DNA from: Nocardia sp. BMG111209
Lineage (GTDB): Bacteria; Actinomycetota; Actinomycetes; Mycobacteriales; Mycobacteriaceae
Length of the DNA: 64,000 nucleotides
Assembly: GCF_000381925.1 (NCBI RefSeq)
Contig: NZ_KB907307.1
Span: 4,464,001-4,528,000 of the forward strand
Reading direction: 5' to 3'
In this document: positions 39,040 through 64,000 of the stretch, one piece after another
Position numbering within the stretch: the stretch's first letter is position 1
Layout: each line of letters opens with the position of its first letter
Notes under the pieces: model-generated
Seen by the model: only the letters and a program-made list of their open reading frames with translations
Database searches by the model: none
Told to the model about the DNA's origin: nothing
Program-made: the position numbers and the translations under genes

Positions 39040-39227
39040 GACGTTCGACTTCCTTCTCTGGCGGCTCGTCCCTGGTCCGGGCGGCCACGACAACGTGGAC
39101 TACCCGCGGCCTCGCGGACCCGATACCTGGCCAGGGTGGCACAGAATCATGAGGAAAGCCTCACGTTTGTCCGGAGCGCCTCCGGCTACCGCCGAGTATT
39201 TCGGTACGTTCGTCCAAGAACGACCCC

Positions 39228-43515: not shown

Positions 43516-44931
43516 ATGGCGACACCGACCGTGCCGGTGATCGTGCACCGGGCCGACGAATATCACAGTGCCGGAGAGATTTTCGGGCAGATAGCCACCG
43601 ACGCGACAATCACCCACTCGTCACTGGCGGCCGTCCTCACCAACTATGCGGGCATGGCCGGCGACGACAGCGTCGGCCGGCAGTGGGCCACCTCCTACGA
43701 CGAGACCGCCGATCTGGCGATCTCGACCTCCGCCGCACTTGCCATCGCGTGCGGGCAGATCCGCGACCTGATCATCGTCGGCGCCCACAACCACCACGTC
43801 ACCGAAACCACCGCCGACCACCGCGATCTCCCGGCCCCGGCCGCCCCGGCCCTGACACCGGAACCCTGTCTGCCCCAATCCGTGCCGTCCGCTGCCGGCC
43901 ACGGCATCCCCGAACCGTTCGGATGGTCGATCATCAGAGACGCCGTCGGCCTCACCTGGCCCGACGGCCACCAGGACCAACTGCACTCCGCCGCGACCGC
44001 GTGGCACACCGCCTCGTCCGACTACCGGACCCTCGCCGGTGAAATACCCAGCGCTGTCGCACTACTCGGCAATCAACAGTCCCCCGAGATCGACACCGCG
44101 GTCACCACCTGCCGGGACCGGCAGACCGACCTCACCGCCCTCGCCGACGCCTGTCGAGCCCTCGGCGACGGCTGCAACACCTATGCCCAGCACCTCGATG
44201 ATGCCCATCGGAAGATCCTCGACGAACTGAGTGAGTTTGCCGCCGAAACCGTAGCCGCCGAAACAGTTTTCGCCGTGCTCACCCCCTTCACCGCTTCGGT
44301 GTCGGAATGGGTCGGCAACACCGCCATGGCGGCACGAGTCGCCGTCAAGGCCCGCCGCATCGCCACGGTCATCACCGAACTCGCCACCAAAGCCGCCGAG
44401 ATCGTCACCGACGTCATCAAACCCCTCGCCGAACGACTGAAACCACTGCTGGAGAAGGTTCGACGCTGGGTCGACGCGGTCAAGACCAAATTCAACCCGT
44501 TCGCCCGGCGCGCGGCAGTCATGGCGGACGGACGTCTCTTCTCCCGGATGGGATCCAGGACGAACAGGGAGATCCTGGACAGCGGCGACCATCTCCCGAT
44601 GACCCAGCAGACCATCGAGGAGTACGCGCGCAGAGCCGGAGTGGACCTGCGAGGCGTCCGTGTGGATGTCGCCGGTTCCGCCGACGACGTTCGCTACTTC
44701 GACACGATGCAGGCCAGCGCCAGCACCGCTCCGGGGCATATCGCGTTGGCTCCCAGCGCTTTCGCCGATGAAGAGACGTTGATGCGGAATCTGGTCCACG
44801 AGCGAGTTCACATCGATCAGTACGCGGACGGACGAGTAGGCTCGAGCGTCACTCGGCAACTGGAGGACGAAGCGTACACAGCCGATGAGGAATTCTGGAA
44901 CAGATACACTGCGGGAAGTCAGGGAGGCTGA
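43516..44931 (+). CDS. Type VII-linked effector-like protein with C-terminal HExxH domain
   Basis: The protein is 471 residues. Residues 1-100 (VPVIVHRADEYHSAGEIFGQI, AVLTNYAGMAGDDSVGRQWATSYDETADLAI) form an Esx-like helical leader. A second helical block with W-x-G-less hairpins spans about 150-230 (LTALADACRALGDGCNTYAQHLDDAHRKIL). A long helical stretch (AETVFAVLTPFTASVSEWVG, VITELATKAAEIVTDV) leads to a C-terminal domain of ~130 residues with LVHERVH at 426-432 (HExxH) and Glu-rich LEDEAYTADEEFW after it. That is the layout of a zincin-type peptidase and of polymorphic toxins. It starts directly after the second WXG100 stop. The peptidase call is inference. Confidence 0.72.
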   Translation: MATPTVPVIVHRADEYHSAGEIFGQIATDATITHSSLAAVLTNYAGMAGDDSVGRQWATSYDETADLAISTSAALAIACGQIRDLIIVGAHNHHVTETTADHRDLPAPAAPALTPEPCLPQSVPSAAGHGIPEPFGWSIIRDAVGLTWPDGHQDQLHSAATAWHTASSDYRTLAGEIPSAVALLGNQQSPEIDTAVTTCRDRQTDLTALADACRALGDGCNTYAQHLDDAHRKILDELSEFAAETVAAETVFAVLTPFTASVSEWVGNTAMAARVAVKARRIATVITELATKAAEIVTDVIKPLAERLKPLLEKVRRWVDAVKTKFNPFARRAAVMADGRLFSRMGSRTNREILDSGDHLPMTQQTIEEYARRAGVDLRGVRVDVAGSADDVRYFDTMQASASTAPGHIALAPSAFADEETLMRNLVHERVHIDQYADGRVGSSVTRQLEDEAYTADEEFWNRYTAGSQGG

Positions 44932-49575: not shown

Positions 49576-51411
49576 ATGGGTGAGAATCGTGCCGTGTTCG
49601 GGTGGGCGCGCACGAGGATCGCGCGATTACGTGAAGTACCGCAAAAGGTTTCGCGGTGGTCGGATCGGATGCGGCTGTCTACCGCAGTGTTGCTGGCCAT
49701 CGTGATCGGTGCCGGCATCGCCACACTGGCGGAGTGGATTCTGTTCGCGGCGTTCCATCCTCAGCACGGCGGCACCTCGGTCGATGTCACGAAGTTGGCG
49801 TTGACCGTGGCCGGTGGGGTCGGGGGTGTGGTCGCGCTGGTGGTTGCCTACCGGCGGCAGCGTGATGTGGAGCAGGGGCGGTTCGTCGAACGGTTCAGCG
49901 CCGCGGCCGCGCAACTCGGCAATGCCGATGTGGCGGTGCGGATCGCGGGGGTGTACGCGATGGCCGGTGTCGCCGACGAGTCCGAGGGTCTGCGCCGCCA
50001 GCAGTGCATCGACGTGCTCTGCGGGTATCTGCGCCTGCCCTACGATCCTGGGCTCGGCACCAATCATCAGAGCAAGCTCGTCCTCAAAGAACCCGTCACC
50101 GACACCGACGGGGAACGCCGCGGCGATCAGGAACGGCAGTTCGACTATCGGCAGAACGACAGTGAGGTCCGTAAGACCATCGTCCGTGTCATCGCGGCCC
50201 ATCTGCGTCTCGATGCCGCATATTCGTGGTCCGCCAACGATTTCGACTTCCGCACCGCGCATCTCGAGAACCCGGATCTCTCGACGACCGCTTTCTCCGG
50301 CATCACCCGATTCGACGGCGCCACTTTCTCCGGACCGACCCGGTTCGACCGCACGGCCTTCTCCGGGACCACCCGGTTCGACGAAGCGACCTTCGCCGAC
50401 GATGCCCGATTCGACCGCACGGCCTTCTCCCGTGACGCCTGGTTCGACGGCGCAACCTTCTCCCGCGACGCGCGATTCGGTGGCGCTGTCTTCTCCGGTG
50501 ACGCTCGGTTCGGCGGTGCGACCTTCTCCGGTCCCACCAGGTTCACCGGCGCGATGTTCTCCGGGCACGCCGGGTTCGAGAATGCGACCTTCTTCGGCGA
50601 TGCCGGGTTCGACGGCGCAATCTTCTCCCACACCACCAGATTCGACGGCGCGACCTTTTCCGGTGACACCAAGTTCGACGGCGCGGCCTTCGCCGGCACC
50701 GCTTGGTTCGATGCCGCGACCTTTTTCGACACCGGCTGGTTCGGCGGCGCGACCTTCTCCGGCGACTCGAAATTCGACAGCGCGACCTTTCTCGGCGCCG
50801 CCCGATTCGACGAAGCCACCTTTTCCGGCAATGCCTGGTTCGGGGGCGCGGCCTTCTCTCGCGACGCCTGGTTCGGCGGTACGGCCTTCGCCCGCGACGC
50901 CTGGTTCGGCGGTGCGATCTTCTCCGGCGATGCTCGATTCGGCAGTGCGGGCTTCTCCGGCGACGCCTGGTTCGGTGGCGCGGCCATCTCCGGCACGGCC
51001 TGGTTCGACGGCGCTGCCTTCTGCGGCGACACTCGGTTCGGCGGCGCGACCTTCTACGGCACCACCTGGTTCGGCGATACGGCCTTCTTCGGCGACACGA
51101 GATTCAACGGCGCGACCTTCTGCGGCATCGCGCGCTTCGACCGTGCGACCTTCTCCAGCGACACCAAGTTCGACCGCACGACCTTCTCCGGCACCACCCG
51201 GTTCGACGGTGCGATGTTCGCGGGTGAGAAACCGGCCGACTTCAGCGCCACCGACTTCGGCCACGGCCGGGTGTCGTTCGCCGATCCGGTGAGATGGGGT
51301 CCACCAGCACCGATATTCGCCTGGGACAACGATGTGCGGCGAAAGCCCGCCAACGTACTCCCGGATTCGTGGCCGCCGGTCACATCCGGCAGCGCGGGAA
51401 AGATCGGCTGA
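49576..51411 (+). CDS. Membrane-anchored pentapeptide-repeat-type protein
   Basis: The protein is 611 residues. Two N-terminal membrane segments (LSTAVLLAIVIGAGIATLAEWILF, then LTVAGGVGGVVALVVAY) are followed by VEQGRFVERFSAAAAQLGNADVAVRIAGVYAMAGVADES, the conserved helical leader of actinobacterial pentapeptide-repeat membrane proteins. Residues ~235-555 are about 28 tandem 11-residue repeats of the form a-[RW]-F-[DG]-g-A-t-F-S-g-d. Phe recurs twice per unit and would stack inside a right-handed beta helix. A Pro/Trp tail (PVRWGPPAPIF) follows. Such a solenoid may mediate protein contact or DNA mimicry. The function is unknown. Confidence 0.82.
   Translation: MGENRAVFGWARTRIARLREVPQKVSRWSDRMRLSTAVLLAIVIGAGIATLAEWILFAAFHPQHGGTSVDVTKLALTVAGGVGGVVALVVAYRRQRDVEQGRFVERFSAAAAQLGNADVAVRIAGVYAMAGVADESEGLRRQQCIDVLCGYLRLPYDPGLGTNHQSKLVLKEPVTDTDGERRGDQERQFDYRQNDSEVRKTIVRVIAAHLRLDAAYSWSANDFDFRTAHLENPDLSTTAFSGITRFDGATFSGPTRFDRTAFSGTTRFDEATFADDARFDRTAFSRDAWFDGATFSRDARFGGAVFSGDARFGGATFSGPTRFTGAMFSGHAGFENATFFGDAGFDGAIFSHTTRFDGATFSGDTKFDGAAFAGTAWFDAATFFDTGWFGGATFSGDSKFDSATFLGAARFDEATFSGNAWFGGAAFSRDAWFGGTAFARDAWFGGAIFSGDARFGSAGFSGDAWFGGAAISGTAWFDGAAFCGDTRFGGATFYGTTWFGDTAFFGDTRFNGATFCGIARFDRATFSSDTKFDRTTFSGTTRFDGAMFAGEKPADFSATDFGHGRVSFADPVRWGPPAPIFAWDNDVRRKPANVLPDSWPPVTSGSAGKIG
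50285..51229 (+). repeat. Tandem 33-bp coding repeat array (about 28 units)
   Basis: The repeat domain of the membrane protein is encoded by roughly 28 consecutive 33-bp units, each containing TTCGACGGCGCGACCTTCTC-like sequence. Units differ mainly at the first and last codons, so the array is degenerate, not fresh. Because 33 is a multiple of three, all other frames also read as periodic and open through it. The array could change length by recombination. Confidence 0.8.
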
Positions 51412-52286: not shown

Positions 52287-52856
52287 ATGAACCGATATCG
52301 GACGATCGTCGTCGACGCGGACGGCTCCGAGACTTCCCGCATCGCAGTGCACGCGGCAGCGACTATCGCCGGGGCCGCCGGTGCGCGGCTGATTCTCGTG
52401 TGTGCTTATGGGCGGGTGCGTGCGGCCGATGTGGCCGCGGCGGCCGATGTGCTCAAGGGTGAGGCGCATCTGGTTCGGCGGGCGGCGCCGGCCGAGGACA
52501 CGCTGACCTCGGCGGTGCGAGAAGCGCTCGGCTGGGGGGCAACCGAGGTGGTCGGGCGGGCGGTGCCGGGGTCCCGGGTCGATGCGCTGTTGTCGGCGGT
52601 GGCCGAGGATCGGGCCGATCTCGTCGTGGTCAGCGGCGATGGTGCGCGTACGCCGGTGGGGCGGTTGCTGGGAACGTTGTCCGACGAGATCTCGCGGCGG
52701 TCTCGGGCCACGGTGTTGTCGGTCAGTCCGATGTCGGCGCGTACAGTGTCGCCTCCTGGCGGTGCAGCTCGACGAAAGGCGTTGGGGGCCGGTCGGGTTC
52801 GGTCGTTCATCCGATTGCACGGGCCGGTCGAGGTGTCGTCTCGGGCCGCGCTGTGA
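52287..52856 (+). CDS. Universal stress protein-like
   Basis: The protein is 189 residues. It has the USP opening YRTIVVDADGSETSRIAVHAAATIAGAAGARLILVCAYG and the ATP-binding-like segment LVVVSGDGARTPVGRLLGTLSDEISRRSRATVLSV, although the G-x2-G-x9-G(S/T) motif is less canonical than usual (GDGARTPVG then G-TLSDE). The C-terminal ~35 residues are Arg-rich and unconserved. ATG 52287 follows CAGGAG. It is divergent from the TetR and overlaps the amidase start (GTGA), so the pair forms an operon. Confidence 0.78.
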   Translation: MNRYRTIVVDADGSETSRIAVHAAATIAGAAGARLILVCAYGRVRAADVAAAADVLKGEAHLVRRAAPAEDTLTSAVREALGWGATEVVGRAVPGSRVDALLSAVAEDRADLVVVSGDGARTPVGRLLGTLSDEISRRSRATVLSVSPMSARTVSPPGGAARRKALGAGRVRSFIRLHGPVEVSSRAAL

Positions 52857-54247
52857 ACGATCGGGCCGGGGTGCGCGGGCTGGCCGCCGGGCTGGCGGCC
52901 GAGGCCGGTGGTTCTCGTGTCGCGGTCGGGGAGGCGCTCGCGCGGATCTCGGGTAGTCAGGACGGTCTGAACGCGTTCCGGGTGGTTCGTGGCGAGCAGG
53001 CGCCGGCCGAAGCGGAGGAGGCGGATCGGCGACTGGCGGCGGGGGAACGGCTGCCGTTGCTCGGTGTGCCGATCGCGGTGAAGGACGATATGGATGTCGC
53101 GGGGCTGCCCACCTCGTTCGGGTGCGGGGGTGTGTTTCCGCCCAGAACCCTGGATTCCGAGGTGGTTCGGCGGTTGCGGGACGCCGGTGCGGTGATCGTC
53201 GGCAAGACCAATACGCCGGAGCTCGGGCAATGGCCGTTCACCAGTGCGCCGGCGTTCGGGTATACCCGCAATCCGTGGAATTCGGCGCGGACGCCGGGTG
53301 GGTCGTCGGGGGGTAGTGCGGTCGCGGTGGCGGCAGGGCTGGTGCCGGGAGCGGTCGGCTCGGACGGTGGTGGCTCGATCCGGATTCCGGCGTCGTGGAC
53401 GAATCTGGTCGGGATCAAACCGCAGCGCGGGCGCGTGCCCACCGATCCTGCGCGGGAGCCGTTCAACGGGTTGACGGTGTACGGGCCACTCGCGCGGACG
53501 GTGGCGGATGCGGCGTTGTTGTTCGATGTGATCGCGGATCCGAAGACGGAAACCCTTGGGGCACCGCGGGTTACGTTGTCCGATGCGGTCGGCGCGGATC
53601 CCGGGCGGTTGCGGATCGCGCTCGCGCTGCGGCCCGCGTTCACCGGTGCGTCAGTGCCGTTGCACCCGGAGGTCGAGGCCGGTGTGCGGCGGGTGGCCGC
53701 GCAGTTGCGGGCGCTGGGCCATGATGTCGAGGTTGCCGAGCCGGGTTTCGGGCCGGCGCTGACGTTGTCGATGATCTCGCGCATCGTTCCGGCCGTGCGG
53801 CAACGGCTTCGGGATCTCCCTACGGCGGAGGTGGATCCGCGGACGACGACCAAGGCACGGCTGGGCAGGCTGCTGACCGGTCCGGCGTGCCGGTCGGCTC
53901 GCGCGGTGGAACCCTTGTTGCGGCGGCGGGTGGGGCGGTTGTTCGCGGATTTCGATCTGGTGCTCGCGCCGGTGACCGCGATGCCGCCGCCGACGGTCGA
54001 GGTCGTGGACGGGTTGGGCTCGTTCGCCACCGACCGGGTCGTGCTGGGCACGATCCAGTACACCTTTCCCTGGAACGTACTCGGCTGGCCCGCAGTGGGT
54101 TTCCCGGCCGGCTTCACCGACGACGGGTTGCCCTTCGGAGCCCAACTGCTCGGACCCGCCGACTCGGAACGAAGGCTGGTCGGTGTCGTCGCGCAGCTCG
54201 AGCGGCAATTGCGCTGGGACGCACACCTTCCCACTCCGTGGTGGTGA
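52853..54247 (+). CDS. Amidase-signature family hydrolase
   Basis: The protein is 464 residues. The Ser-cisSer-Lys triad is visible: Lys in GVPIAVKDDMDVAG, cis-Ser in the Gly/Ser loop TPGGSSGGSAVAVAAG and nucleophilic Ser in VGSDGGGSIRIPAS. It hydrolyses an amide, usually to carboxylate and ammonia. The substrate cannot be told from the signature. Its GTG start overlaps the USP stop. It converges on the hydrolase gene with a 9-bp gap. Confidence 0.9.
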   Translation: MNDRAGVRGLAAGLAAEAGGSRVAVGEALARISGSQDGLNAFRVVRGEQAPAEAEEADRRLAAGERLPLLGVPIAVKDDMDVAGLPTSFGCGGVFPPRTLDSEVVRRLRDAGAVIVGKTNTPELGQWPFTSAPAFGYTRNPWNSARTPGGSSGGSAVAVAAGLVPGAVGSDGGGSIRIPASWTNLVGIKPQRGRVPTDPAREPFNGLTVYGPLARTVADAALLFDVIADPKTETLGAPRVTLSDAVGADPGRLRIALALRPAFTGASVPLHPEVEAGVRRVAAQLRALGHDVEVAEPGFGPALTLSMISRIVPAVRQRLRDLPTAEVDPRTTTKARLGRLLTGPACRSARAVEPLLRRRVGRLFADFDLVLAPVTAMPPPTVEVVDGLGSFATDRVVLGTIQYTFPWNVLGWPAVGFPAGFTDDGLPFGAQLLGPADSERRLVGVVAQLERQLRWDAHLPTPWW

Positions 54248-54256
54248 ACGGGAAAC

Positions 54257-55231
54257 TCAGTGCGGCAGATCGGGTTCCAGGAATCGGCGGACACACGAGG
54301 TGACCTCGCCGGGGCTGTCGACCTGGACGAAGTGGGAGGAGCGGTCCACCCGATCCAGCCGCGCGCCCGGAATGAGCGCGACCAGGCGATCCCCGACCGC
54401 CGGATTCACCATCGGATCCTTCCGGGAATACAGCAGTTGCACCGGGACCGGGAACGGTTCTCCCGCATTGCCGCGCCGGATCAGCTCCGCCTCGAATTCG
54501 GCGAAATCGCGGGGGCGCATGACATCTCGCAGATAACCCGCGAACGCGCGGGTGCCCTGGACCGACTTCAACGGGTCGCCGTACTCCCGCATCTCCTCCA
54601 GGGATTTGAGGGTGTCATCGTAGTAGTGCACGGTCCGGTGGGCCCAGCGAGCGGTGTCGCGGCGGACCCACAGTCCGAACAGGTCCTCGGCGCGCGGGAT
54701 GGACAAAGCGGTATGCAGCGCATGCAATCTCGGCTCGGAGAACGCCGGGGGGTGGATCGCGACGATCCGGGAGTAGGCGGTCGGCTGGGCCAGAGCGTGC
54801 CGGAGCACCAGGTAGCCACCGAGCGAATTGCCCACCACCGGACCGCCGGTCAGGCCGAGCGCGGTCTGGAATTCGCCGAGCCAGGTGACCAGGCCCGCGA
54901 CCGACAACCGCTGCGCCGGCGCCGAACTGCGGCCGCTGCCGGGCAGATCGGGGACGATCAGGCGGTAGTGCTCGCCGAGTCCGTCGAGGACGTAGCGCCA
55001 CGAGTAGCCGCTGGTCATCAGGCCGTGGACGAGCAGCAGCGGCTCACCGGCGCCGTAGGTCCGGTAGTGGACGCGCAGCGTGCCGAGGCTCTCGGACTCC
55101 ATCGCCAAGTCGTGCGCCTCGGAGCGGAAGTACGGGTGCGGCCGGGTCGGCTGTTCCGGGAGGCGGGAGAAGGGCTGCCGGTGGAACGGCCGGTCCGGCC
55201 CGGCGGGCTTCTCGCTGACCTGACTTGGCAT
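54257..55231 (-). CDS. Alpha/beta hydrolase (TTGCAA-regulated)
   Basis: The protein is 324 residues. The oxyanion strand is LLLVHGLMTSGYSWRYVLDGLG; the nucleophile elbow is VVGNSLGGYLV (G-N-S-L-G); a later SSHFVQVDSPGEV supplies the catalytic His; an Asp lies near RKDPMVNPAVGD. Relatives include epoxide hydrolases and C-C hydrolases. ATG 55231 follows GGGGAG. Its promoter region holds the TTGCAA palindrome and so seems separate from MMPL transcription (57-bp gap). It may hydrolyse a precursor or product of the adjacent NRPS locus; inference only. Confidence 0.85.
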   Translation of the reverse strand: MPSQVSEKPAGPDRPFHRQPFSRLPEQPTRPHPYFRSEAHDLAMESESLGTLRVHYRTYGAGEPLLLVHGLMTSGYSWRYVLDGLGEHYRLIVPDLPGSGRSSAPAQRLSVAGLVTWLGEFQTALGLTGGPVVGNSLGGYLVLRHALAQPTAYSRIVAIHPPAFSEPRLHALHTALSIPRAEDLFGLWVRRDTARWAHRTVHYYDDTLKSLEEMREYGDPLKSVQGTRAFAGYLRDVMRPRDFAEFEAELIRRGNAGEPFPVPVQLLYSRKDPMVNPAVGDRLVALIPGARLDRVDRSSHFVQVDSPGEVTSCVRRFLEPDLPH

Positions 55232-55253
55232 CGACGCTCCCCTGTCGGACTTT

Positions 55254-55268
55254 TTGCAACCATTGCAA
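55254..55268. promoter_or_regulatory. TTGCAA palindrome in the hydrolase promoter
   Basis: TTGCAACCATTGCAA has the same TTGYAA-N3-TTRCAA form as the two sites upstream of tetR at 52.1 kb. It lies 22 bp before the hydrolase ATG, over the expected promoter, with AT-rich TATATC beside it. This links the TetR with the hydrolase. Confidence 0.7.
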
Positions 55269-55288
55269 TATATCACAGTGGGCCCGCG

Positions 55289-57448
55289 TCAGGACGAGCC
55301 GCTGGGCACCTTCACCGCATCGTCGTCGAGCTCGCCGGGATCGGCCGGTGATCGAGTGTGCTTGCGGCGGAACGGAGTCCACCAATTCGCCGAACCCATC
55401 AACGCCATGATGGCGGGCACCAGCAGCATCCGGACCAGGGTGGCGTCGATCAGGATCGCCAGGGCCATCCCGAGCGCCGCGACCTTGATCAGCGCGACCT
55501 GGGACAACGCCGCCGCGCCGGTGACGATGATGAACAGCGAGGCCGCCGCCGTGATGATCCGGCCGGTACGGGCGACCCCGGCCTCGATGGCCGCCGGGGT
55601 GTCGGCGCCGCGGTCGTGCGCCTCGACCATGCGCGACATCAGGAAAACCTCGTAGTCCGTGGACAATCCGAAGACGGCCATCGTGATGACCACGAGCGCC
55701 GGCAGCGGGAGCGGACCGGGTTCCACACCCAGCACCCCGGCGCCGTAACCGTCGACGAAGATCAGGGTGAGCACGCCGAAGGTGGCGCCCAGACTGAGCG
55801 CGGCCATCGCAACGGCCTTGAGCGGCAGCACGATCGACCGGAATCCGAGGCACATCAGCAGCAGGGTCGCGGCGAGGATCACGAGCACGGCGTCCGGTAT
55901 CGACCGCACGATGGCCGAATAGCTGTCCACCCGTTCGGCATTCATCCCGCCCACCAGCACCGTGGTGCCCGGTGGTGCGGGCAGTTGCCGCAGTGCCCGC
56001 ACGGTGTCCTCGGCCGCGGGCGAGAAGTCCGGATGGGTGAGCAGGGTGCGCACCAGGACCCGATCCCCGGCCGCGGTCAGCTGCACGGCCAGCCGGACCC
56101 CGTTCACCTTCCCGGCCTGGACGATCAATTGTTGCACCGCGATGTCGGGAGGCGCCTGGCCGTCGCGGCCGCGAACGACGAGGGTGGCGCCGTCGGTGGC
56201 GTTGGGGAAGTCCCCGGCGAGCGTCTCCTGGGCCACCCGGGCCGGATCGTGGGCGGGCAGGCCGTTGGGATCTATTCCGCCGGTGCGCATTCCGGCCAGC
56301 GGCAGGCTCAGCGCGACCAGGACGAGCACGATCGCCCCGGCGACCGCGACCGGACGGCCCATGATCCACCTGGCCAGACCGCTCCAGAACCGGCGGGCCC
56401 TGGCCTCGCCGCGCTGGACCGCGCCCCGGCGCCAGGGCACCGCGTCGATACGCGTGCCGAGCAGGGCGAGCGCGGCGGGCAACGCGGTCAGGGCGAGGAT
56501 CGCGGCGATCGCGATCGCCGCGATCGCCCCGTAGCCGAGGGATCGCAGCATGGAGATCGGGAAGACCAGCGAACCGGCGAACGCGCCGATCAGCAGCAGG
56601 GCCGAGAAGACGATCGTGCGTCCCGCGGTCTCGACGGTGCGCGCGGCCGCCGCGGCCGGATCCCGGCCCGCGGCGAGTTCCTCCCGGAACCGGCTCACGA
56701 CGAACAGGCTGTAGTCGATCGCCAGGCCCAGCCCGATGATCGAGGCGATATTCATCGAGAACGCACTGACGTCGCTGACCGTACTGATCGCCCGCAGCGC
56801 CCCCAGCGAGCCGAAGACCGCGAGCCCGCCCACGAGCACCGGCGCCGCCGCGGCCACCAGCCCGCCGAAGATCACCACCAGCAGGATCAGCATCACCGGG
56901 ATCGCCACGGATTCGGCGAGGACGACATCGGTTTTGGATTTGGTGTTGTAGGCGTCGGTGAGTGCGGTGTATCCGGCGAACCGGGCCGAGACGCCGTCGA
57001 CGGCGAGGTGGTCGGCCAGCGCCGGATAGTTGCGCAGTTTGGCGCCGTCGTCGCCGGCGAGCACCACCGTCGCCAGGGCCTCGCGCTGATCGGTGGAGCG
57101 CAACGCGCCCCGCCGGATTCCCGTTGCGGTCCAATATGATTCGATCGGTTCGGCCAGCGCGCCGGCGTCGACGGACCGGATCCGGTCCAGCACCTGGGGT
57201 CCGATGTCGTCGAGGGTCCGGCCGGGTGGGGCGGTGTAGATCACCACGACGTCCGGCCGCCGGCCGCCGGGGGTGTCGTCCATCAACCGCCCGGCCGCCG
57301 TGGAGGAGCTCGCGGGGTCGGCGTATCCGGCGAGGTTCAGGTCGCCGAGTACGCCGAGACCCCAGATCCCGCTGAGGATGAACAGCGAAACCGCCAGCGC
57401 GACAACCCATCGCGCTCGGCTCGTGACGATTCGTCCCCATGTGGTCAT
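55289..57448 (-). CDS. MMPL-family (RND-like) transporter
   Basis: The protein is 719 residues. Start: MTTWGRIVTSRARWVVALAVSLFILSGIWG (first membrane segment), then an extracytoplasmic loop with DPASSSTAAGRLMDDTP. Two membrane blocks follow, each of five to six helices. The first has ASIIGLGLAIDYSLFVVSRFREEL and the second has VFGLSTDYEVFLMSRMVEAHDRGADT, the paired Asp-Tyr proton-relay motifs of MMPL transporters. The C-terminus is short and hydrophilic. MMPL proteins export lipidic or peptidic metabolites with the proton gradient. Its ATG overlaps the monooxygenase stop (ATGA). It is the likely exporter of the locus product. Confidence 0.88.
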   Translation of the reverse strand: MTTWGRIVTSRARWVVALAVSLFILSGIWGLGVLGDLNLAGYADPASSSTAAGRLMDDTPGGRRPDVVVIYTAPPGRTLDDIGPQVLDRIRSVDAGALAEPIESYWTATGIRRGALRSTDQREALATVVLAGDDGAKLRNYPALADHLAVDGVSARFAGYTALTDAYNTKSKTDVVLAESVAIPVMLILLVVIFGGLVAAAAPVLVGGLAVFGSLGALRAISTVSDVSAFSMNIASIIGLGLAIDYSLFVVSRFREELAAGRDPAAAAARTVETAGRTIVFSALLLIGAFAGSLVFPISMLRSLGYGAIAAIAIAAILALTALPAALALLGTRIDAVPWRRGAVQRGEARARRFWSGLARWIMGRPVAVAGAIVLVLVALSLPLAGMRTGGIDPNGLPAHDPARVAQETLAGDFPNATDGATLVVRGRDGQAPPDIAVQQLIVQAGKVNGVRLAVQLTAAGDRVLVRTLLTHPDFSPAAEDTVRALRQLPAPPGTTVLVGGMNAERVDSYSAIVRSIPDAVLVILAATLLLMCLGFRSIVLPLKAVAMAALSLGATFGVLTLIFVDGYGAGVLGVEPGPLPLPALVVITMAVFGLSTDYEVFLMSRMVEAHDRGADTPAAIEAGVARTGRIITAAASLFIIVTGAAALSQVALIKVAALGMALAILIDATLVRMLLVPAIMALMGSANWWTPFRRKHTRSPADPGELDDDAVKVPSGSS

Positions 57449-58665
57449 CGGCCCACCCGTGTCCCGGTCGATGTGACGGTGGCAGCGCCGGCCGTCCGCG
57501 CGGTGAGCGCTCCCACGATGAATTGTGCCTCGGTCTCGACCGTTTCGTGGCGGGAGCCGCCCCACGAGGACGGGCCCGCGAGGGTGAAGTAGCCGGGCCG
57601 CGGCGATCCGGACCCGGGTTCGCCGGTCGCGGGCTCGAAACCCGTTGCCAGGACCAGGAGGTCGATCTCGCGCAACCGGCCGTCGATGGTGCGGACCCCC
57701 GCCGGGCCGAGGCGGTCGATCGCGGTGGTGACGAGTTCGACCTCGGGCCGGGTGAAGCACCGGTGGTAGCGATTCGACAGGGTGGGACGCCTTCGGCCCA
57801 TGGGTTCGGCGGGCGTCAGCGCGCGGCGCAACTCGCGGTCGCGCACCCGGCTCCACAGGTAGGCGCGGCCCAGCGCGGTCGCGATCGGGCCGAGGACGAC
57901 GGCGCTGCGGTGCCGGAACCCGGCGCTCAGCAGGGCGAGCAGGGCGGCGACGACCCGGAACAGCATGACCCCCATACCGGGAACCCGCACCAGCGCCGTC
58001 CGCCACCACATCGGCACGATATGGGTGGGTTTGGGCAGCACCCAGATCGGGCTGCGCTGGAAGACGTACAGCCGCGCGGCCGTCCCGGCGAGCTCCGGAA
58101 TCAGTTGCACCGCCGCCGGTCCGGTCCCGATCACCGCGACCCGCTGCCCGGTCACGTCGCGATCCCGGGACCAGTCGCGGGTGTGCACCGTCTCCCCGCG
58201 GAACGCGGCCGGATCCGCGAACGCCGGAATCCGCGGCGGCCCGCAGGATCCGCGCGCGTCGATGACGTACCGCGTTGTCACCGTGGACTTTCCGCCGTCG
58301 AGCTCCAGCCGCCAGCAGTCGTCGCGCTCGTCGCGCCGGACGCCGGTCACCTCGGTGCGCAGCCGCAGCGCGGAACGCAGCCGGTAACTTTCGGCGCAGT
58401 GGTGCAGATAGGCCAGTACCTCGTCACGCGCGGGGAAGATCGCGGTCCAGTCCGGATTCCGCGCGAACGAGAACTGGTAGTTCATACTCGGCCGATCGGT
58501 CACCATGCCCGGATAGTCGTTCGCGTGCCACACACCGCCGAGGCCGCCGGACCGCTCGATGATCGTGAATCCGCCGATTCCGGCCCGCCGCAGGGCCATC
58601 GCGACCCCGAGGCCCGCGATACCGGCCCCGATGATCACGATCTCCTCGTGCTCGTGTGCGCCCAT
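57445..58665 (-). CDS. Baeyer-Villiger-type flavin monooxygenase (short)
   Basis: The protein is 406 residues. It starts EIVIIGAGIAGLGVAMALRRAG (FAD), has HANDYPGMVTDRPSMNYQFSF, the BVMO fingerprint FRGETVHTRDW (F-x-G-x3-H-x3-W) and a second nucleotide site VAVIGTGPAAVQLIPELAG for NADPH. It is shorter than the ~490-540 residues usual for these enzymes and ends with a low-complexity Ala/Thr tail, so the C-terminal lobe is reduced. Its ATG lies 13 bp after the NRPS stop and its stop overlaps the MMPL start. It probably oxygenates the NRPS-derived product. Confidence 0.85.
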   Translation of the reverse strand: MGAHEHEEIVIIGAGIAGLGVAMALRRAGIGGFTIIERSGGLGGVWHANDYPGMVTDRPSMNYQFSFARNPDWTAIFPARDEVLAYLHHCAESYRLRSALRLRTEVTGVRRDERDDCWRLELDGGKSTVTTRYVIDARGSCGPPRIPAFADPAAFRGETVHTRDWSRDRDVTGQRVAVIGTGPAAVQLIPELAGTAARLYVFQRSPIWVLPKPTHIVPMWWRTALVRVPGMGVMLFRVVAALLALLSAGFRHRSAVVLGPIATALGRAYLWSRVRDRELRRALTPAEPMGRRRPTLSNRYHRCFTRPEVELVTTAIDRLGPAGVRTIDGRLREIDLLVLATGFEPATGEPGSGSPRPGYFTLAGPSSWGGSRHETVETEAQFIVGALTARTAGAATVTSTGTRVGR

Positions 58666-58678
58666 CGCGCCTCCGTCC

Positions 58679-61600
58679 TCAGAAGTGGTAGAGCGCACAA
58701 CCGACCTGCACCCCGGCCCCGGCCGCGACGATGAGCCCGAGATCGCCGGTCCGGGTGCGGCCGGTATCGAAGCAGTGCCGCAGCGCCGCCGGGATCGACG
58801 ACGTGTACAGGTCACCGCCGGTGCCCACCTCGTCCACCACATCCACGACGCGGTCGCGCGGGATGTCCAGGCGGGCGGCCAGCGCGGTGAGGAAATCGGA
58901 CGAGATCTGCGGTGCGAGAACGACATCGAGTTCACCCACGCCGCGGTCGGCGGTCCGCAGCAGCGCGGCGATCGCCTCGTGCACGGTGTCGAGATAGATC
59001 TCCTCGAGGCCCGGCTGCTGCCGCACCTCGAGTCCGTCCGCGCCGTGCATCCGGGTGAAGGTGGTCAGCCGGTCGAGATGTTCGGGGTGACTGGCGAAGT
59101 GGAACAATCCGAATCCGGTGTCCGCCCCCGCCGACGCGGTCAGCAGCGCGGCCGAGCCGAGATGTTCGATGCCGCGCCGCTTCCGCAGCGTGCTCGGCAC
59201 ATCGGGGTCGGCCTCGGCGGCGACGACCAGAGCGGTTGCCGTGGCGCCGGTCTCGATCATCGCGGTCGCGGCGTAGCAGGCCTTCAGGAATCCGGTGCCG
59301 GAGTCGGACAGGTCGAAGGCCAGCGTCCCGCCGGTCAGCGGATCGTCGGGATCGTGGTTGATCGCCAGGCGGTCGGCGACGAAGGTGGCCGTGGCCGGTT
59401 CGACGATGTAGTCGTCCCGGAACACCCCGGTGTACAACACCAATCCCGGCGCCGCGGCTCCCGTGACGAGTTCCCGGCCCGCGCGTACGGCGAGATCGAC
59501 CGCCTTGTCCTCCCCGTCGGGCCGCGCCACCGCGACACCGGCGATCCGCACGGTGGGTGCGGCGGGCACGGGCAGCGGCGGTCGGTCGGCGGCGGCGCGG
59601 GTCTCGACGACACCGCGCAGCCGGTCCGGGAGATCGTCGAAGGTGTACAGGGCGGCGCCGATCGTCTGCCCGGAACCGGTGATCCCGAACAGGATTCGAT
59701 CGCCGGACTGCACGTCGCCCTTCTCGACCAGATCGTGGATCGCGACCATGTGCGTGGTGGAGGCGGTATTGCCCCGATGCTCCAGATTCGACACGGTATT
59801 GGCCGGATGGGCCGCCGTCCGCCCGATCAGCTGATTGATCGTCGTCATCGCGTCCTGGATCGACGCCTGCGAAGTCTGGTGCACCACAATGCGATCCACG
59901 GCCTCGGGTTGCCAGCCGTGGCGGTCCAGCAGTCGCAGCGCGAACGGCACCGACTTCCGGACGGCCAGGGCCGTCTGTTCCACCGCCTGGGTGTGCATGA
60001 TCGCGCCGCCGTGCGCTTCGCCGGTCCGCTTGCCGATGCACAGCTCGCTGTACCGGCTCAGGGTCCGTAACTCGATGTCGTGGAAGCCGATTCCCGGCGT
60101 GGCCGCCCGCTCCAGGATCACCGCGGCGCCGGCATCGCCGACGGTGAGGCACGCCAGCCGGTCGTCGAGGAAGTCGACGATCTCGCGCTGCGCGGTATCG
60201 ATGATGTGCGAGACGTATTCACCGCTGACCACCAGCGCGTTGCGCACCCGGCCCGCGCGCAGCAGGCGATCCGCGACCGCGATCCCGGTGAACAGGCCGG
60301 CACAGGCGTTGGAGATGTCGAAACCGATCGCACCCGTGAGCCCCAGCCGCGCGCGGACCCGCTGCGAGGTACCCGGCTCGGACACCAGACGACGGTCGGG
60401 CCCTTCGGTATTGGAGATGTTCGTACAGATCAGCAGGTCGATCGAGTCGGGCGGATACGACGACGCGTCCAGGCACCGCTGCGCCGCCCGCACGGCCAGA
60501 TCGGTGGTGAATTCGCCGTCCGCGACGACCCGCCGGGTCCGGATTCCGGTGAGCTGCTCCAGCGGGATCTGTACCGGCCGTTCACAACCCGCGAGCACCT
60601 CCCCGGTGGTCACGACCGTCTCGGGCAGATAGACGCCGAGACTTTCGATGATCGTGTTGCCCGGCTCGATCTCCTTGGGCGCCAGTGGTTTCGGCGCAGG
60701 AAGATCGGCGGTGACCTCGGGCCGGACCGGCGCCGCTGTCCCGGTCGTCTCCGTGACGTCGACGGCGTCGGCCAGGGCGGCGACGGTCCGGTGCCGGAAC
60801 ATCAGTTCCGGGGTGAGCGGGATACCCGCGGCGGTGGCGCGGGTACAGATGTCCATGGTCTGGGTCGACGCGCCACCGAGTTCGAAGAAATCGTCGGCGA
60901 TGCCCACGGTGTCGATGCCCAGAACCTGTTGCCACAGTTCACACAACACCTGCTGCGACGCGGTGCGCGGCGCCTCGTAACCGGCCGAGATCTCCGGCCG
61001 CCGGCTGTCGGGGTCGGGCAGCGCGCGGGTGTCGCGCTTACCGGTGGGCGTGGTCGGGATCGCCTCGACCGGGACGAACTGCGCCGGAATCATGGCGTCC
61101 GGCAAGATGTTTCGCAGATGTGCCCGCAGATCGGCGGTGCTCGGCGCCGCGGCGGGCGCCGCCGCGACCAGATAGGCCACCAGCCGCGGCTCGCCGCGGT
61201 GATCGTCGCGGACCACCACCGCCGCCTCGCGCACCTGCGCGTGCCCGGTCAGTGCGCCCTCGATCTCGCCCAATTCGATACGGACACCACGGATCTTGAC
61301 CTGGTTGTCGGTGCGGCCGAGATATTCGATCTCGCCGTCGGGCCGATACCTGGCGAGATCGCCGGTGCGATACAGCATTCCGCCGGGACGGGCCGGGTCC
61401 GAGGGCGCGCCGGCGTCGACGAACCGTTCCGCGGTCAGCTCGGGCCGGTTGAGATAACCGCGTCCCACACCGTCACCGCCGATGTACAGCTCACCGGCGA
61501 CACCGACCGGAACCGGATTCAGGTAGCGGTCGACGACGTGGATCGCGGTATTCGCGATCGGCCGGCCGATCGGCACCGACCGGCCGTGATCGGCGCGATC

Positions 61601-63946
61601 GACATCGAAGTAGGTGACGTCGATCGCGGCCTCGGTCGGCCCGTACAGATTGTGCAGGCGCGCGGGTAAGGCGGCGAAGAACTCGTCCCGCAGATCGGCG
61701 GTGAGCGCCTCGCCGCTGGTGATCACCTCGCGCAGCCCGGTGCAGCGGCGGACCTCGGGGTCGGCGAGGAACATCCGCAGCATCGACGGCACGAAATGCG
61801 TGACGGTCACACCCTTTTCGACGATCGTGCGGACCAGGTAGCCGCTGTCACGGTGCCGCTCCGGTTCCGCCACGACGATGCGGGCCCCGGCCAGCAACGC
61901 CCAGAACAGTTCCCACACCGACACATCGAAGTTGGCGGGGGTCTTGTGCAGGACGACATCGTCCGGGCGCAACGGATAGGCCCGCTGCATCCACAGCAGC
62001 CGGTTGCCGATGCCGCGATGGGTGTTCAGCGCGCCCTTCGGCCGGCCGGTGGTGCCGGAGGTGAACAGGATGTAGGCCACGTCGTCGGGAGTGATCGCCA
62101 CCGCGGGCAGTTCGGGTGCGGGCCCCGCCGGATCCGGATCGTCCACGCAGACCGCCGGGACATCGCCGGGCAGGCGATATCGGATGCGGCGGTCGGTGAT
62201 CCACGCGGCGGGCCCGGCCTCCGCGCTGATGCCGCGCAGGCGCTGGGCCGGATGTGCGGGATCCACCGGCAGGAACGCACAGCCCACCAGCAGTACCGCC
62301 AGCACCGAAACCACCGACATCTCCGAACGTTCCACCGCGATACCCACCACACCTCCCGGCCGCGCACCGGCTTCCAGCAGCCGGCCGCCGAGCCGCTGGG
62401 CCCGGTCGAGCAGTTCCCGGTAGGTGAGGTCCCGATCGCGGAAGCTGACCGCGACCGCCGCAGGAGTCCGGTCGGCCTGATCGCGGATCAGGCCGGGCAG
62501 CAACCGATCTCGCAACTCCGGCGCCGCGGTGTCGTTCCAGGCGGCCCGCTGCCGGAGTTCGGCGGCGGTGAGCAGCGGCAGGGCTCCGACGGGCCGGTGC
62601 GGATCGACGGCCGCGCCGGTGAGGATCTCGCCGAGGTGCCCGGCCATCCGCGCGATGACCTCGGGGTCGAACAGGTCGCGGTTGTACTGGAGTACGGCCG
62701 AGAGCGTGTCGCCGTGTTCGGCGACCATCAGCATCAGATCGACGGGTGCGCCGCCCTGCCGCAGCGCGACCGGCTCGAACAGCTGCGCGGGACCGCCGGT
62801 GGCCTGCGACATCCGGGTGCTCTCCCAGGCGAAGAAGACCTGGAAGATGGGCGGATACGCCGGATCCCGCACCGGAACCAGCCGCTGCGCCAGCTCGGTG
62901 AACGGCAGGTCCTGATGGGCCACCGCGTCCAGGACGGTGCGGCGGGTCCGCTCGAGCAGGGTGGCGAAGGCCGGGTTGTCGCCGAGATCCGAGCGCAGCG
63001 CCACCGAATTCACGAAGTAGCCGACGATGTTCTCCGCGCCGGGCATCCCGCGACCGGCGATCGGCGATCCCACGATGATGTCGTCGACTCCCGAATAACG
63101 GTGCAGCAGAGCGATATACGCCGAGAGCACGACCACCTGGAGCGTAACCCCGTGCGCACGAGCGAGTTCCCGCGCGGCGCGGGTCCGGTCCGCGCCGAGG
63201 TCGAAGTAGTTGGTGGCGCCGGCGAAGGTCTGCGTCGCCGGGCGGGGTCCGCGGCCGGGCAGGTCCAGGCGCGGGAGGTCACCGGCGAGCTGCCGCTCCC
63301 AATATGCCCACAGCTCGGCGCCGCGCGCGCTGCCGACCAGTTCGCGCTGCCACTGCACATGGTCGGCGTATCGCGCGGGCAGGGCGGGCAATTCGGCGTC
63401 CGGGTCGCGGTACAGCTCGGACAGTTCGGCCAATACCAGATCCAGCGACCAGAAGTCGACGACGATATGCGGAATGGTCAGTGCGAGAAGGTGTTCCGCC
63501 GGTCCGCGCCGCAACAGGGTCAGCCGCCACAGCGGTCCCGCGGCCAGCTCGATCGGCGCCTCGAGCAGGTCGTCCAGCAGCTCGTCCACCCGCTGTTGCG
63601 GCCAGTCACCCGCCTCGACGATCCGGATCGGCGGCAGCGTGTTCGGATCGCGGACGGCCACGACGCGCTCACCCGTGCGCCGGAAGGTCGTGCCGAGCAG
63701 ATCGTGCCTGCGCACGAGGCCGCGCAGGGCCGCCTCGAGCCGCGGCAGTTCGAGCTCGCCGTGGCGGCGGCCCACGTACAGCAGGTTGTAGGAGGAACTG
63801 GCCGGCGCGAGGGCGGCGTGGAACCACAGCCCGCGTTCCCCGAACGACAGTTCGCGCTCGAACCGCTCGCGCAGCAGACGTTCCAGCAGTTCGCGTTTGC
63901 GGTCGGCGTCGAGGCCGCGCACGGCGTCGTCCTGATTGATCATCAC
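58679..63946 (-). CDS. Hybrid NRPS (C-A-PCP) fused to two KAS III domains
   Basis: The protein is 1,755 residues. Residues 30-450 form a condensation domain with IPHIVVDFWSLD (HxxxD at 160-164; first His of HHxxxD is Pro). The adenylation domain spans 480-980, with FTSGTTGRPKGA and YGPTEAAIDVTYF; the pocket residues read D-V-W-H-I-S-L-I-D, matching serine codes. A PCP follows (FELGGAS, Ser near 1,024). Residues 1,090-1,430 form a KAS III (FabH-like) with NACAGLFTGI Cys, HQTSQAS His and RGNTAS Asn. Residues 1,465-1,755 form a second KAS III with Cys replaced by Gly (SDSGTGF), His by Pro and Asn lost. The GTG start overlaps the previous stop. Confidence 0.88.
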   Translation of the reverse strand: MMINQDDAVRGLDADRKRELLERLLRERFERELSFGERGLWFHAALAPASSSYNLLYVGRRHGELELPRLEAALRGLVRRHDLLGTTFRRTGERVVAVRDPNTLPPIRIVEAGDWPQQRVDELLDDLLEAPIELAAGPLWRLTLLRRGPAEHLLALTIPHIVVDFWSLDLVLAELSELYRDPDAELPALPARYADHVQWQRELVGSARGAELWAYWERQLAGDLPRLDLPGRGPRPATQTFAGATNYFDLGADRTRAARELARAHGVTLQVVVLSAYIALLHRYSGVDDIIVGSPIAGRGMPGAENIVGYFVNSVALRSDLGDNPAFATLLERTRRTVLDAVAHQDLPFTELAQRLVPVRDPAYPPIFQVFFAWESTRMSQATGGPAQLFEPVALRQGGAPVDLMLMVAEHGDTLSAVLQYNRDLFDPEVIARMAGHLGEILTGAAVDPHRPVGALPLLTAAELRQRAAWNDTAAPELRDRLLPGLIRDQADRTPAAVAVSFRDRDLTYRELLDRAQRLGGRLLEAGARPGGVVGIAVERSEMSVVSVLAVLLVGCAFLPVDPAHPAQRLRGISAEAGPAAWITDRRIRYRLPGDVPAVCVDDPDPAGPAPELPAVAITPDDVAYILFTSGTTGRPKGALNTHRGIGNRLLWMQRAYPLRPDDVVLHKTPANFDVSVWELFWALLAGARIVVAEPERHRDSGYLVRTIVEKGVTVTHFVPSMLRMFLADPEVRRCTGLREVITSGEALTADLRDEFFAALPARLHNLYGPTEAAIDVTYFDVDRADHGRSVPIGRPIANTAIHVVDRYLNPVPVGVAGELYIGGDGVGRGYLNRPELTAERFVDAGAPSDPARPGGMLYRTGDLARYRPDGEIEYLGRTDNQVKIRGVRIELGEIEGALTGHAQVREAAVVVRDDHRGEPRLVAYLVAAAPAAAPSTADLRAHLRNILPDAMIPAQFVPVEAIPTTPTGKRDTRALPDPDSRRPEISAGYEAPRTASQQVLCELWQQVLGIDTVGIADDFFELGGASTQTMDICTRATAAGIPLTPELMFRHRTVAALADAVDVTETTGTAAPVRPEVTADLPAPKPLAPKEIEPGNTIIESLGVYLPETVVTTGEVLAGCERPVQIPLEQLTGIRTRRVVADGEFTTDLAVRAAQRCLDASSYPPDSIDLLICTNISNTEGPDRRLVSEPGTSQRVRARLGLTGAIGFDISNACAGLFTGIAVADRLLRAGRVRNALVVSGEYVSHIIDTAQREIVDFLDDRLACLTVGDAGAAVILERAATPGIGFHDIELRTLSRYSELCIGKRTGEAHGGAIMHTQAVEQTALAVRKSVPFALRLLDRHGWQPEAVDRIVVHQTSQASIQDAMTTINQLIGRTAAHPANTVSNLEHRGNTASTTHMVAIHDLVEKGDVQSGDRILFGITGSGQTIGAALYTFDDLPDRLRGVVETRAAADRPPLPVPAAPTVRIAGVAVARPDGEDKAVDLAVRAGRELVTGAAAPGLVLYTGVFRDDYIVEPATATFVADRLAINHDPDDPLTGGTLAFDLSDSGTGFLKACYAATAMIETGATATALVVAAEADPDVPSTLRKRRGIEHLGSAALLTASAGADTGFGLFHFASHPEHLDRLTTFTRMHGADGLEVRQQPGLEEIYLDTVHEAIAALLRTADRGVGELDVVLAPQISSDFLTALAARLDIPRDRVVDVVDEVGTGGDLYTSSIPAALRHCFDTGRTRTGDLGLIVAAGAGVQVGCALYHF

Positions 63947-64000
63947 GCTTCCCCTTCGGCGGAGAGCAGTTCGGACAGCAGGTCCTCGACGGCCTGGTCC
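63943..64000 (-). CDS. 3' end of an upstream gene (cut by window edge)
   Basis: The last 18 codons, ending LLSELLSAEGEA and TGA, are visible. The stop overlaps the NRPS GTG as GTGA, so the two are translationally coupled. The Leu/Glu-rich helical tail resembles C-termini of NRPS or PKS proteins that act as docking segments, but too little is present to name the enzyme. Confidence 0.6.
   Translation of the reverse strand, partial: DQAVEDLLSELLSAEGEA

Follow-up and report, generated by a model that had tools for sequence, protein, structure and literature searches.

What a tandem of 3-ketoacyl-ACP synthase III (KAS III) domains does at the end of a nonribosomal peptide synthetase (NRPS) module is the question raised by a gene of Nocardia sp. 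BMG111209, found in a 64,000-nucleotide stretch of its 9.14-Mb genome (C1:4464001-4528000), which is referred to below as the window. A domain scan of the open reading frame (ORF) at 58679-63946 bears out an earlier note on this DNA, in which a single chain was read as condensation (C), adenylation (A) and peptidyl carrier protein (PCP) domains followed by two KAS III domains, here KS1 and KS2. The answer favoured here, with somewhat more confidence than doubt, is that KS1-KS2 represents a natural fusion of LstA and LstB (an OleA heterodimer) and is the condensing enzyme that ends a lipid assembly line. The pair most likely acts as a non-decarboxylative Claisen enzyme, rather than as an acyltransferase or a ketosynthase with its chain-length factor (CLF).

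Residues and structure of the two KAS III domains

Residue counts refer to the 120 listed homologs among 400 matches at E <= 0.001. KS1 keeps the catalytic triad reported in the earlier note (Cys1215, His1356 and Asn1393), and Glu, Cys, His and Asn are all present in 120/120. The loss of the triad from KS2 is likewise confirmed, with Gly, Pro and Asp at the Cys, His and Asn places; among the homologs the first of these places never holds Cys (0/120), the second is Pro in 119 and the third Asp in 117. Mean identity to the window's own domain is 58% for KS1 and 40% for KS2, KS1 being the higher in every one of the 120. Despite this lower overall conservation the Glu of KS2 is unchanged throughout, standing in a Glu-Pro motif (E1516-P1517) in 120/120. 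The earlier note, in which KS2 was merely a dead, CLF-like partner, had overlooked this motif, and that part of it does not hold.

In alignment with the PDB structure, E1516 of KS2 falls on Glu117 of OleA (117 counted from the printed start), a place occupied by Phe in E. coli FabH. The base in OleA and PpyS is a Glu contributed by the other subunit (PMC4578411, PMC7064751, both in part), and PpyS E105A forms no product (PMC4578411). The sections available of the OleA study state that, with two exceptions, its OleA proteins carry Glu117 followed by Pro, and that among the characterised proteins of the thiolase superfamily only OleA homologs have a Glu base acting across subunits (PMC7064751). 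The exchanges C128A and H271A in LstA, and E60A in LstB, each abolish LstAB activity, according to the accessible part of PMC12141560. KS1 carries the Cys-His-Asn triad of an LstAB-type A partner, while KS2 has the catalytic Glu and no working triad, as in a B partner. E1516 is probably equivalent to LstB Glu60, the two being matched by position only (E1516 is the 50th of the 289 residues in the KS2 piece, not far from position 60), and KS2 is short at its N-terminus, like stand-alone B partners (288–334 aa). The OleA-type Glu of KS2 therefore places the pair with LstAB/OleA heterodimers, and of the two activities that the earlier note had left side by side, condensing or transferring an acyl group, condensation is favoured and acyl transfer is not.

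Structure alignments comprised the query and 46 of the 120 listed homologs, hand-picked for spread. The KAS III fold claimed for KS2 was confirmed on the predicted structure of that domain modelled on its own, the structure comparison of the tandem model having reached KS1 only. The tandem model (pLDDT 88.2, pTM 0.93) predicts a confident, fixed arrangement of KS1 and KS2, in line with the paired fold anticipated earlier, these scores describing the overall arrangement and not the contacts at the interface.

Two further conserved acids were observed. Glu1190 of KS1 (60377-60379) is an OleA-type Glu in 120/120 listed homologs and by analogy should face the dead KS2 site. Asp1712 of KS2 (58811-58813), at the place of the catalytic Asn, is Asp also in 6/6 stand-alone B partners, and given this conservation the dead site may have a function of its own.

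Fused and two-gene relatives

Relatives were taken from a genome search, a related-locus search of genome contigs having given none. At E <= 1e-60, 32 of the 150 genomes of the genus match. A single open frame runs through KS1-KS2 at >=60% identity in six of the 150, namely the window's genome and five others, and the other 26 hold two frames with a stop between them, at 30–35% identity. From a family sample of 401 genomes 17 match, eight of which belong to genus g29 and have the fused form at 46–49% identity; named homologs at this level are Mycobacterium or Mycolicibacterium, and the g29 fused-gene genomes are probably mycobacteria. The best eight matches over the KS1-KS2 part share 58–69% identity, the closest named homologs being Nocardia proteins. 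Uniqueness of the architecture was discarded, 400 related proteins having been found at E <= 0.001. No description of the order C-A-PCP-KAS III-KAS III was found in the open-licence literature, most subscription papers lying outside it. As to the candidate for an undescribed system put forward in the earlier note, the architecture is without description in that literature, but LstAB/OleA heterodimers are already described; the parts are of known kinds, and it is the fusion and its proposed product that lack a description there.

Six two-gene pairs were read. Their A partners have Cys, His, Asn and Glu in 6/6, and their B partners lack the triad but have Glu-Pro in 6/6. In a tree of 33 rows, in which the pairs are these six uncharacterised ones and the characterised LstA and LstB are left out, KS1 groups with the A partners (supports 98/94) and KS2 with the B partners (100/99). 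The residue pattern shared with these pairs, together with this grouping, makes a fused LstA-LstB the most likely identity of KS1-KS2. A CLF-type reading of KS2 was rejected on the invariant Glu and the grouping with stand-alone B partners.

The gene content of the two-gene loci is, by domain matches, lst/nlt-like (gene calls in related loci come from our own GC-frame script, so that starts are approximate and some genes may have been missed). A Pfam scan of four loci gave AMP-binding genes in three (G026, G030, G135); at G080 it covered two genes, a glycosyltransferase and a hydrolase. With NCBIfam, ligases beside three of four pairs (G026, G135, G195) score 499–523 bits with models for olefin beta-lactone synthetase (OleC), against a cut-off of 900 and with a general ligase family as their best model, and the G030 ligase gave no match to these models. 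Short-chain dehydrogenases/reductases (SDRs) resembling the one found beside the mycobacterial fused genes occur in 5/7 two-gene loci, and OleD is the best NCBIfam model for both pair-side SDRs scanned (198 and 200 bits, below the cut-off of 580). FAD monooxygenases 34–36% similar to the window's lie near two pairs (G026, G030). Counterparts of LstB are said always to be clustered with LstA genes, in the part of PMC12141560 available.

At one locus (genome G195) an NRPS gene of 992 aa (L066:7316-10294), whose A domain is 38% identical to the window's, stands ahead of a two-gene LstA/LstB-like pair with genes for an OleC-like ligase and for an SDR resembling OleD. Neighbourhoods of this kind may be the origin of the fusion. 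They also agree with an alternative in which the two KS domains join two free acyl-CoAs, as happens in lipstatin synthesis, the NRPS places N-acyl-serine on the hydroxyl of a 2-alkyl-3-hydroxyacid and the fusion merely couples expression. The lst clusters, too, presumably contain an NRPS. Acyl-CoAs are the substrates of LstAB (PMC12141560, in part). This alternative is nonetheless quite unlikely. A beta-lactone lst/nlt cluster would be expected to hold an OleC-type ligase and an OleD-type reductase, and neither was recognised in the scanned neighbours of the window gene. G496 has two ligase-like ORFs near its fused gene, but these match models of ordinary acyl-CoA ligases and not OleC, and the other fused-gene loci, scanned in part, yielded no OleC-type ligase. 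The genus loci of the fused gene likewise gave no SDR reductase, and the polyketide synthase (PKS) gene that overlaps the NRPS gene, with its fatty-acyl-AMP ligase (FAAL) domain, would already provide an acyl chain.

Neighbouring genes and the predicted product

The features of the locus are collected in Table 1.

Table 1. Features of the fused gene and its surroundings (window positions; residue numbers refer to the 1755-aa protein)
Feature	Position	Strand	Details
C-A-PCP-KS1-KS2 gene, 1755 aa	58679..63946	-	start GTG 63946 or ATG 63943
Condensation domain, residues 34-463	62558..63847	-	second His of HHxxxDG present (PHIVVDFWS)
Adenylation domain, residues 488-976	61019..62485	-	code DVWHISLIDK, serine-like
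PCP/thiolation domain, residues 999-1062	60761..60952	-	
KS1, LstA-like live KAS III domain, residues ~1097-1438	59633..60658	-	C1215, H1356, N1393, E1190
Cys1215, KS1 nucleophile	60302..60304	-	
KS2, LstB-like KAS III domain, residues 1467-1755	58682..59548	-	without Cys/His/Asn
KS2 Glu1516 (EP motif)	59399..59401	-	on OleA Glu117 by alignment; proposed base for KS1 site
Upstream PKS gene, FAAL-ACP-KS-AT-DH-ER-KR-ACP, 2791 aa	3' end 63943..64000; genome C1:4527943-4536318	-	
FAD monooxygenase, 406 aa	57445..58665	-	ATG 58665, 13 bases after KS2 stop
MMPL-family exporter	55289..57448	-	ATG 57448 from ORF translation; scanned piece from 57457
Alpha/beta hydrolase	54257..55276	-	homolog in 3/5 other genus loci
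Amidase	52853..54247	+ (opposite)	homolog in 2/5 other genus loci and 4/4 probable mycobacterial loci, one of the four an incomplete ORF where its stretch ends

The upstream PKS gene overlaps the NRPS gene by four bases, the rest of it extending outside the window, and a PKS gene adjoins the fused gene in 10/10 loci read (six of the genus, four of g29). Its nearest NCBIfam models, all below cut-off, include Pks2 (phthioceranic acid synthase) and fatty-acid-AMP ligases. The AT domain has the motifs GHSMGEVAAA and DVASHGPHM, the VASH element of which we take, by the motif rules for AT domains, to be of the methylmalonyl type.

The serine specificity assigned to the A domain in the earlier note is supported by its code, which was extracted by alignment with E. 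coli EntF in one run (DVWHISLIDK in the window, DVWHFSLVDK in EntF). The pattern xWHxSL recurs in 9/9 of the homologs P0002-P0010, eight of them Nocardia, and 115 of the listed homologs exceed 1600 aa, 60 of which have a serine-type code, as counted among the 20 commonest codes (one further code lies beyond these 20 and one row is a gap). The remaining homologs have other codes, for example DAAHTGEITK, to which no amino acid was assigned. The phosphopantetheine Ser of the PCP is present in 114/115 homologs, the remaining one being a gap. A seryl-S-PCP intermediate had been proposed; the likely PCP intermediate is instead N-acyl-seryl, given the FAAL-PKS gene that lies upstream and overlaps with the NRPS gene.

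In the proposed pathway the FAAL would activate a long fatty acid and load it onto the first acyl carrier protein (ACP), and the PKS module would add one C3 unit with full reduction. The C domain would then hand the chain to serine on the PCP, forming N-acyl-seryl-S-PCP. Either this chain or a further fatty acyl group would be transferred to Cys1215 of KS1 and Glu1516 of KS2 would enter the KS1 site as the base, so that a non-decarboxylative Claisen condensation could couple N-acyl-serine with a second acyl thioester. The freed beta-ketoacid would lose CO2 to leave an N-acyl-amino ketone. Loss of CO2 from a beta-ketoacid of either regiochemistry gives an N-acyl-amino ketone with CH2OH, and the predicted core R-CO-NH-CH(CH2OH)-CO-R', a 3-ketoceramide skeleton, would be the same irrespective of which partner is the nucleophile. 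Finally, the neighbouring Baeyer-Villiger-type enzyme would oxidise the ketone in the window's pathway, an SDR would reduce it in 3/4 mycobacterial loci, and the MMPL protein would export the lipid. An exported, uncharacterised lipid with a ceramide-like core is thus predicted.

The monooxygenase has FRGETVHTRDW at position 155, between GAGIAG at 13 and GTGPAA at 180, and FxGxxxHxxxW between two nucleotide-binding motifs is the Baeyer-Villiger fingerprint; its best NCBIfam model is pentalenolactone D synthase, far below cut-off. FAD monooxygenases and SDRs both commonly act on ketones, and one or the other beside the fused gene therefore fits a ketone product. MMPL genes lie near the fused gene in 6/6 genus loci and 1/4 g29 loci.

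That KS1-KS2 instead extends the N-acyl-seryl chain decarboxylatively, in the manner of FabH and with a malonyl- or methylmalonyl thioester, to give either a 3-keto-4-acylamino acid or a ring of the tetramic or tetronic type, would suit the FabH triad kept in KS1, whose best profile scores are with FabH-type models. A canonical FabH, on the other hand, is a homodimer of live domains without a Glu base, and here KS2 is dead and the OleA-type Glu is present in both halves; the protein has no further carrier protein or AT after KS2, and the stretch 54257-58665 showed no recognisable gene of cyclase type. This course is very unlikely.

A release role, with KS1 an acyltransferase in the manner of the cervimycin and nonactin KAS III enzymes, KS2 a scaffold like PqsB, and the N-acyl-seryl or second acyl chain moved to a hydroxyl or amine, is unlikely too. 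Acylating KAS III enzymes are named in the portion of PMC4578411 available, and PqsBC is, from part of PMC4807248, a live/dead KAS III pair whose dead half lacks catalytic residues. An OleA-type Glu is not needed for acyl transfer, yet E1516 never varies, and several loci of the nearest two-gene relatives adjoin OleC/OleD-like genes. Some observations nevertheless weigh against a fused LstA-LstB making a ketone. KS1 is slightly nearer in structure to PqsD/FabH than to OleA, and the C-terminal position is suited to chain release, both of which speak for the acyltransferase. In the tree, long branches were flagged by the program (FabH 2.05, sB_G030 1.11) and their joins are possibly false. The putative ketone-acting genes are not universal, the FAD monooxygenase being found in 2/6 genus loci and an HpnA-like SDR in 3/4 g29 loci.

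Beyond the PKS gene, on the other strand, lies a GMC-type oxidoreductase of 549 aa (L010:1166-2815, +), 72–80% identical in G010 and G074, which may be part of the pathway. A berberine-bridge-type FAD enzyme is found near the fused gene in 3/4 of the probable mycobacterial loci (L058/L059, L060/L061, L062/L063, L064/L065), and a similar FtsX-type permease also in three of these four (L058-L065). The window's FAS-I (29725-39093, minus strand, 3122 aa) is the sole copy in the genome, about 15 kb from the cluster; FAS-I stands directly beside the PKS gene in G010 and G016, with a second copy in G010. A FAS-I dedicated to the pathway was dropped, two FAS-I genes being present only in G010 and G103 among 10 genomes. 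Elsewhere in the window, 43516-44931 (plus strand) encodes a 471-aa protein with WXG100-like and eCIS-core domains, followed by a 387-aa ORF with no Pfam match, and 49576-51411 (plus strand) a 611-aa protein with pentapeptide repeats in 14 matched stretches.

Comparison with known systems

LstA-LstB, the lipstatin synthase heterodimer of Streptomyces toxytricini, resembles KS1-KS2 in pairing a Cys/His/Asn subunit with a divergent KAS III-like subunit bearing an essential Glu, and joins two acyl-CoAs into an alpha-branched beta-ketoacid (PMC12141560, in part). Unlike the fused enzyme it consists of two proteins, takes acyl-CoA substrates, has no NRPS fusion and belongs to a cluster with a beta-lactone product. 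OleA (Xanthomonas campestris) and PpyS share with KS1-KS2 the KAS III fold and a Glu base for the neighbouring site, but are stand-alone homodimers with both sites live. PqsBC of Pseudomonas aeruginosa is also alike, as a pseudo-2-fold heterodimer of live and dead KAS III subunits that mimics the FabH homodimer (PMC4807248, in the part available). It differs, however, in a PqsC without Asn, a PqsB without any catalytic residue, a small aromatic substrate and no NRPS, whereas Asn is present in KS1 and Glu in KS2. The nocardiolactone (nlt) type clusters of Nocardia match the two-gene loci described here in their KAS III pair, OleC-like ligase and OleD-like SDR, and are unlike the fused gene in having no NRPS fusion and a beta-lactone product. 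The nocardiolactone cluster and its beta-lactone synthetase are mentioned in the part of PMC7413640 available.

In Nocardia and Mycobacterium, the fusion would let an NRPS module end in an OleA/LstAB-type heterodimeric condensing enzyme. If this is right, exported amino-ketone lipids would form a family of their own in these bacteria, whose contact with the host and whose permeability to drugs are shaped by outer lipids, and the ceramide core would have a convergent route. More tentatively, and with the balance tilted against it, the locus may encode an assembly-line route to ceramide-like lipids in mycomembrane bacteria that is free of pyridoxal phosphate (PLP), in which N-acyl-seryl-S-PCP and a second acyl chain are joined by the built-in LstAB-type pair. 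This would result in 3-ketoceramide or a near analogue, to be tailored and then exported by MMPL. Members whose A domains have different codes would build N-acyl-amino ketone lipids of this kind on other amino acids. In addition, the fixed 1:1 fusion would allow the base-in-trans mechanism of LstAB to be tested easily in one polypeptide.

A ceramide pathway known from bacteria uses serine palmitoyltransferase (SPT), a PLP enzyme. The SPT model NF047600 (SerpalmtaseCFB, by name specific to one group) gave no match above cut-off but sub-threshold matches in 10/10 genomes, and sub-threshold matches in most of 14 control genomes too. Orthology of the mycobacterial SDR to CerR was not supported, its identity to the epimerase of the E. 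coli BL21(DE3) spt gene group being 31% over 174 aa; the match to that epimerase (58.9 bits) is weaker than those to lst-type SDRs (62.8–82 bits). Bacterial ceramide synthesis by SPT, an acyltransferase and CerR has been proposed to pass through oxidised ceramide (PMC11087976, in part), and a 3-ketoceramide-like intermediate is therefore biologically plausible. Starting from serine and acyl thioesters, the SPT ceramide pathway and the one proposed here would arrive at a common ketone skeleton, and the spt genes of E. coli BL21 are likewise grouped with a FAAL, an ACP and an epimerase-type SDR, the difference being that here a thiolase-fold pair and an NRPS would carry out the assembly.
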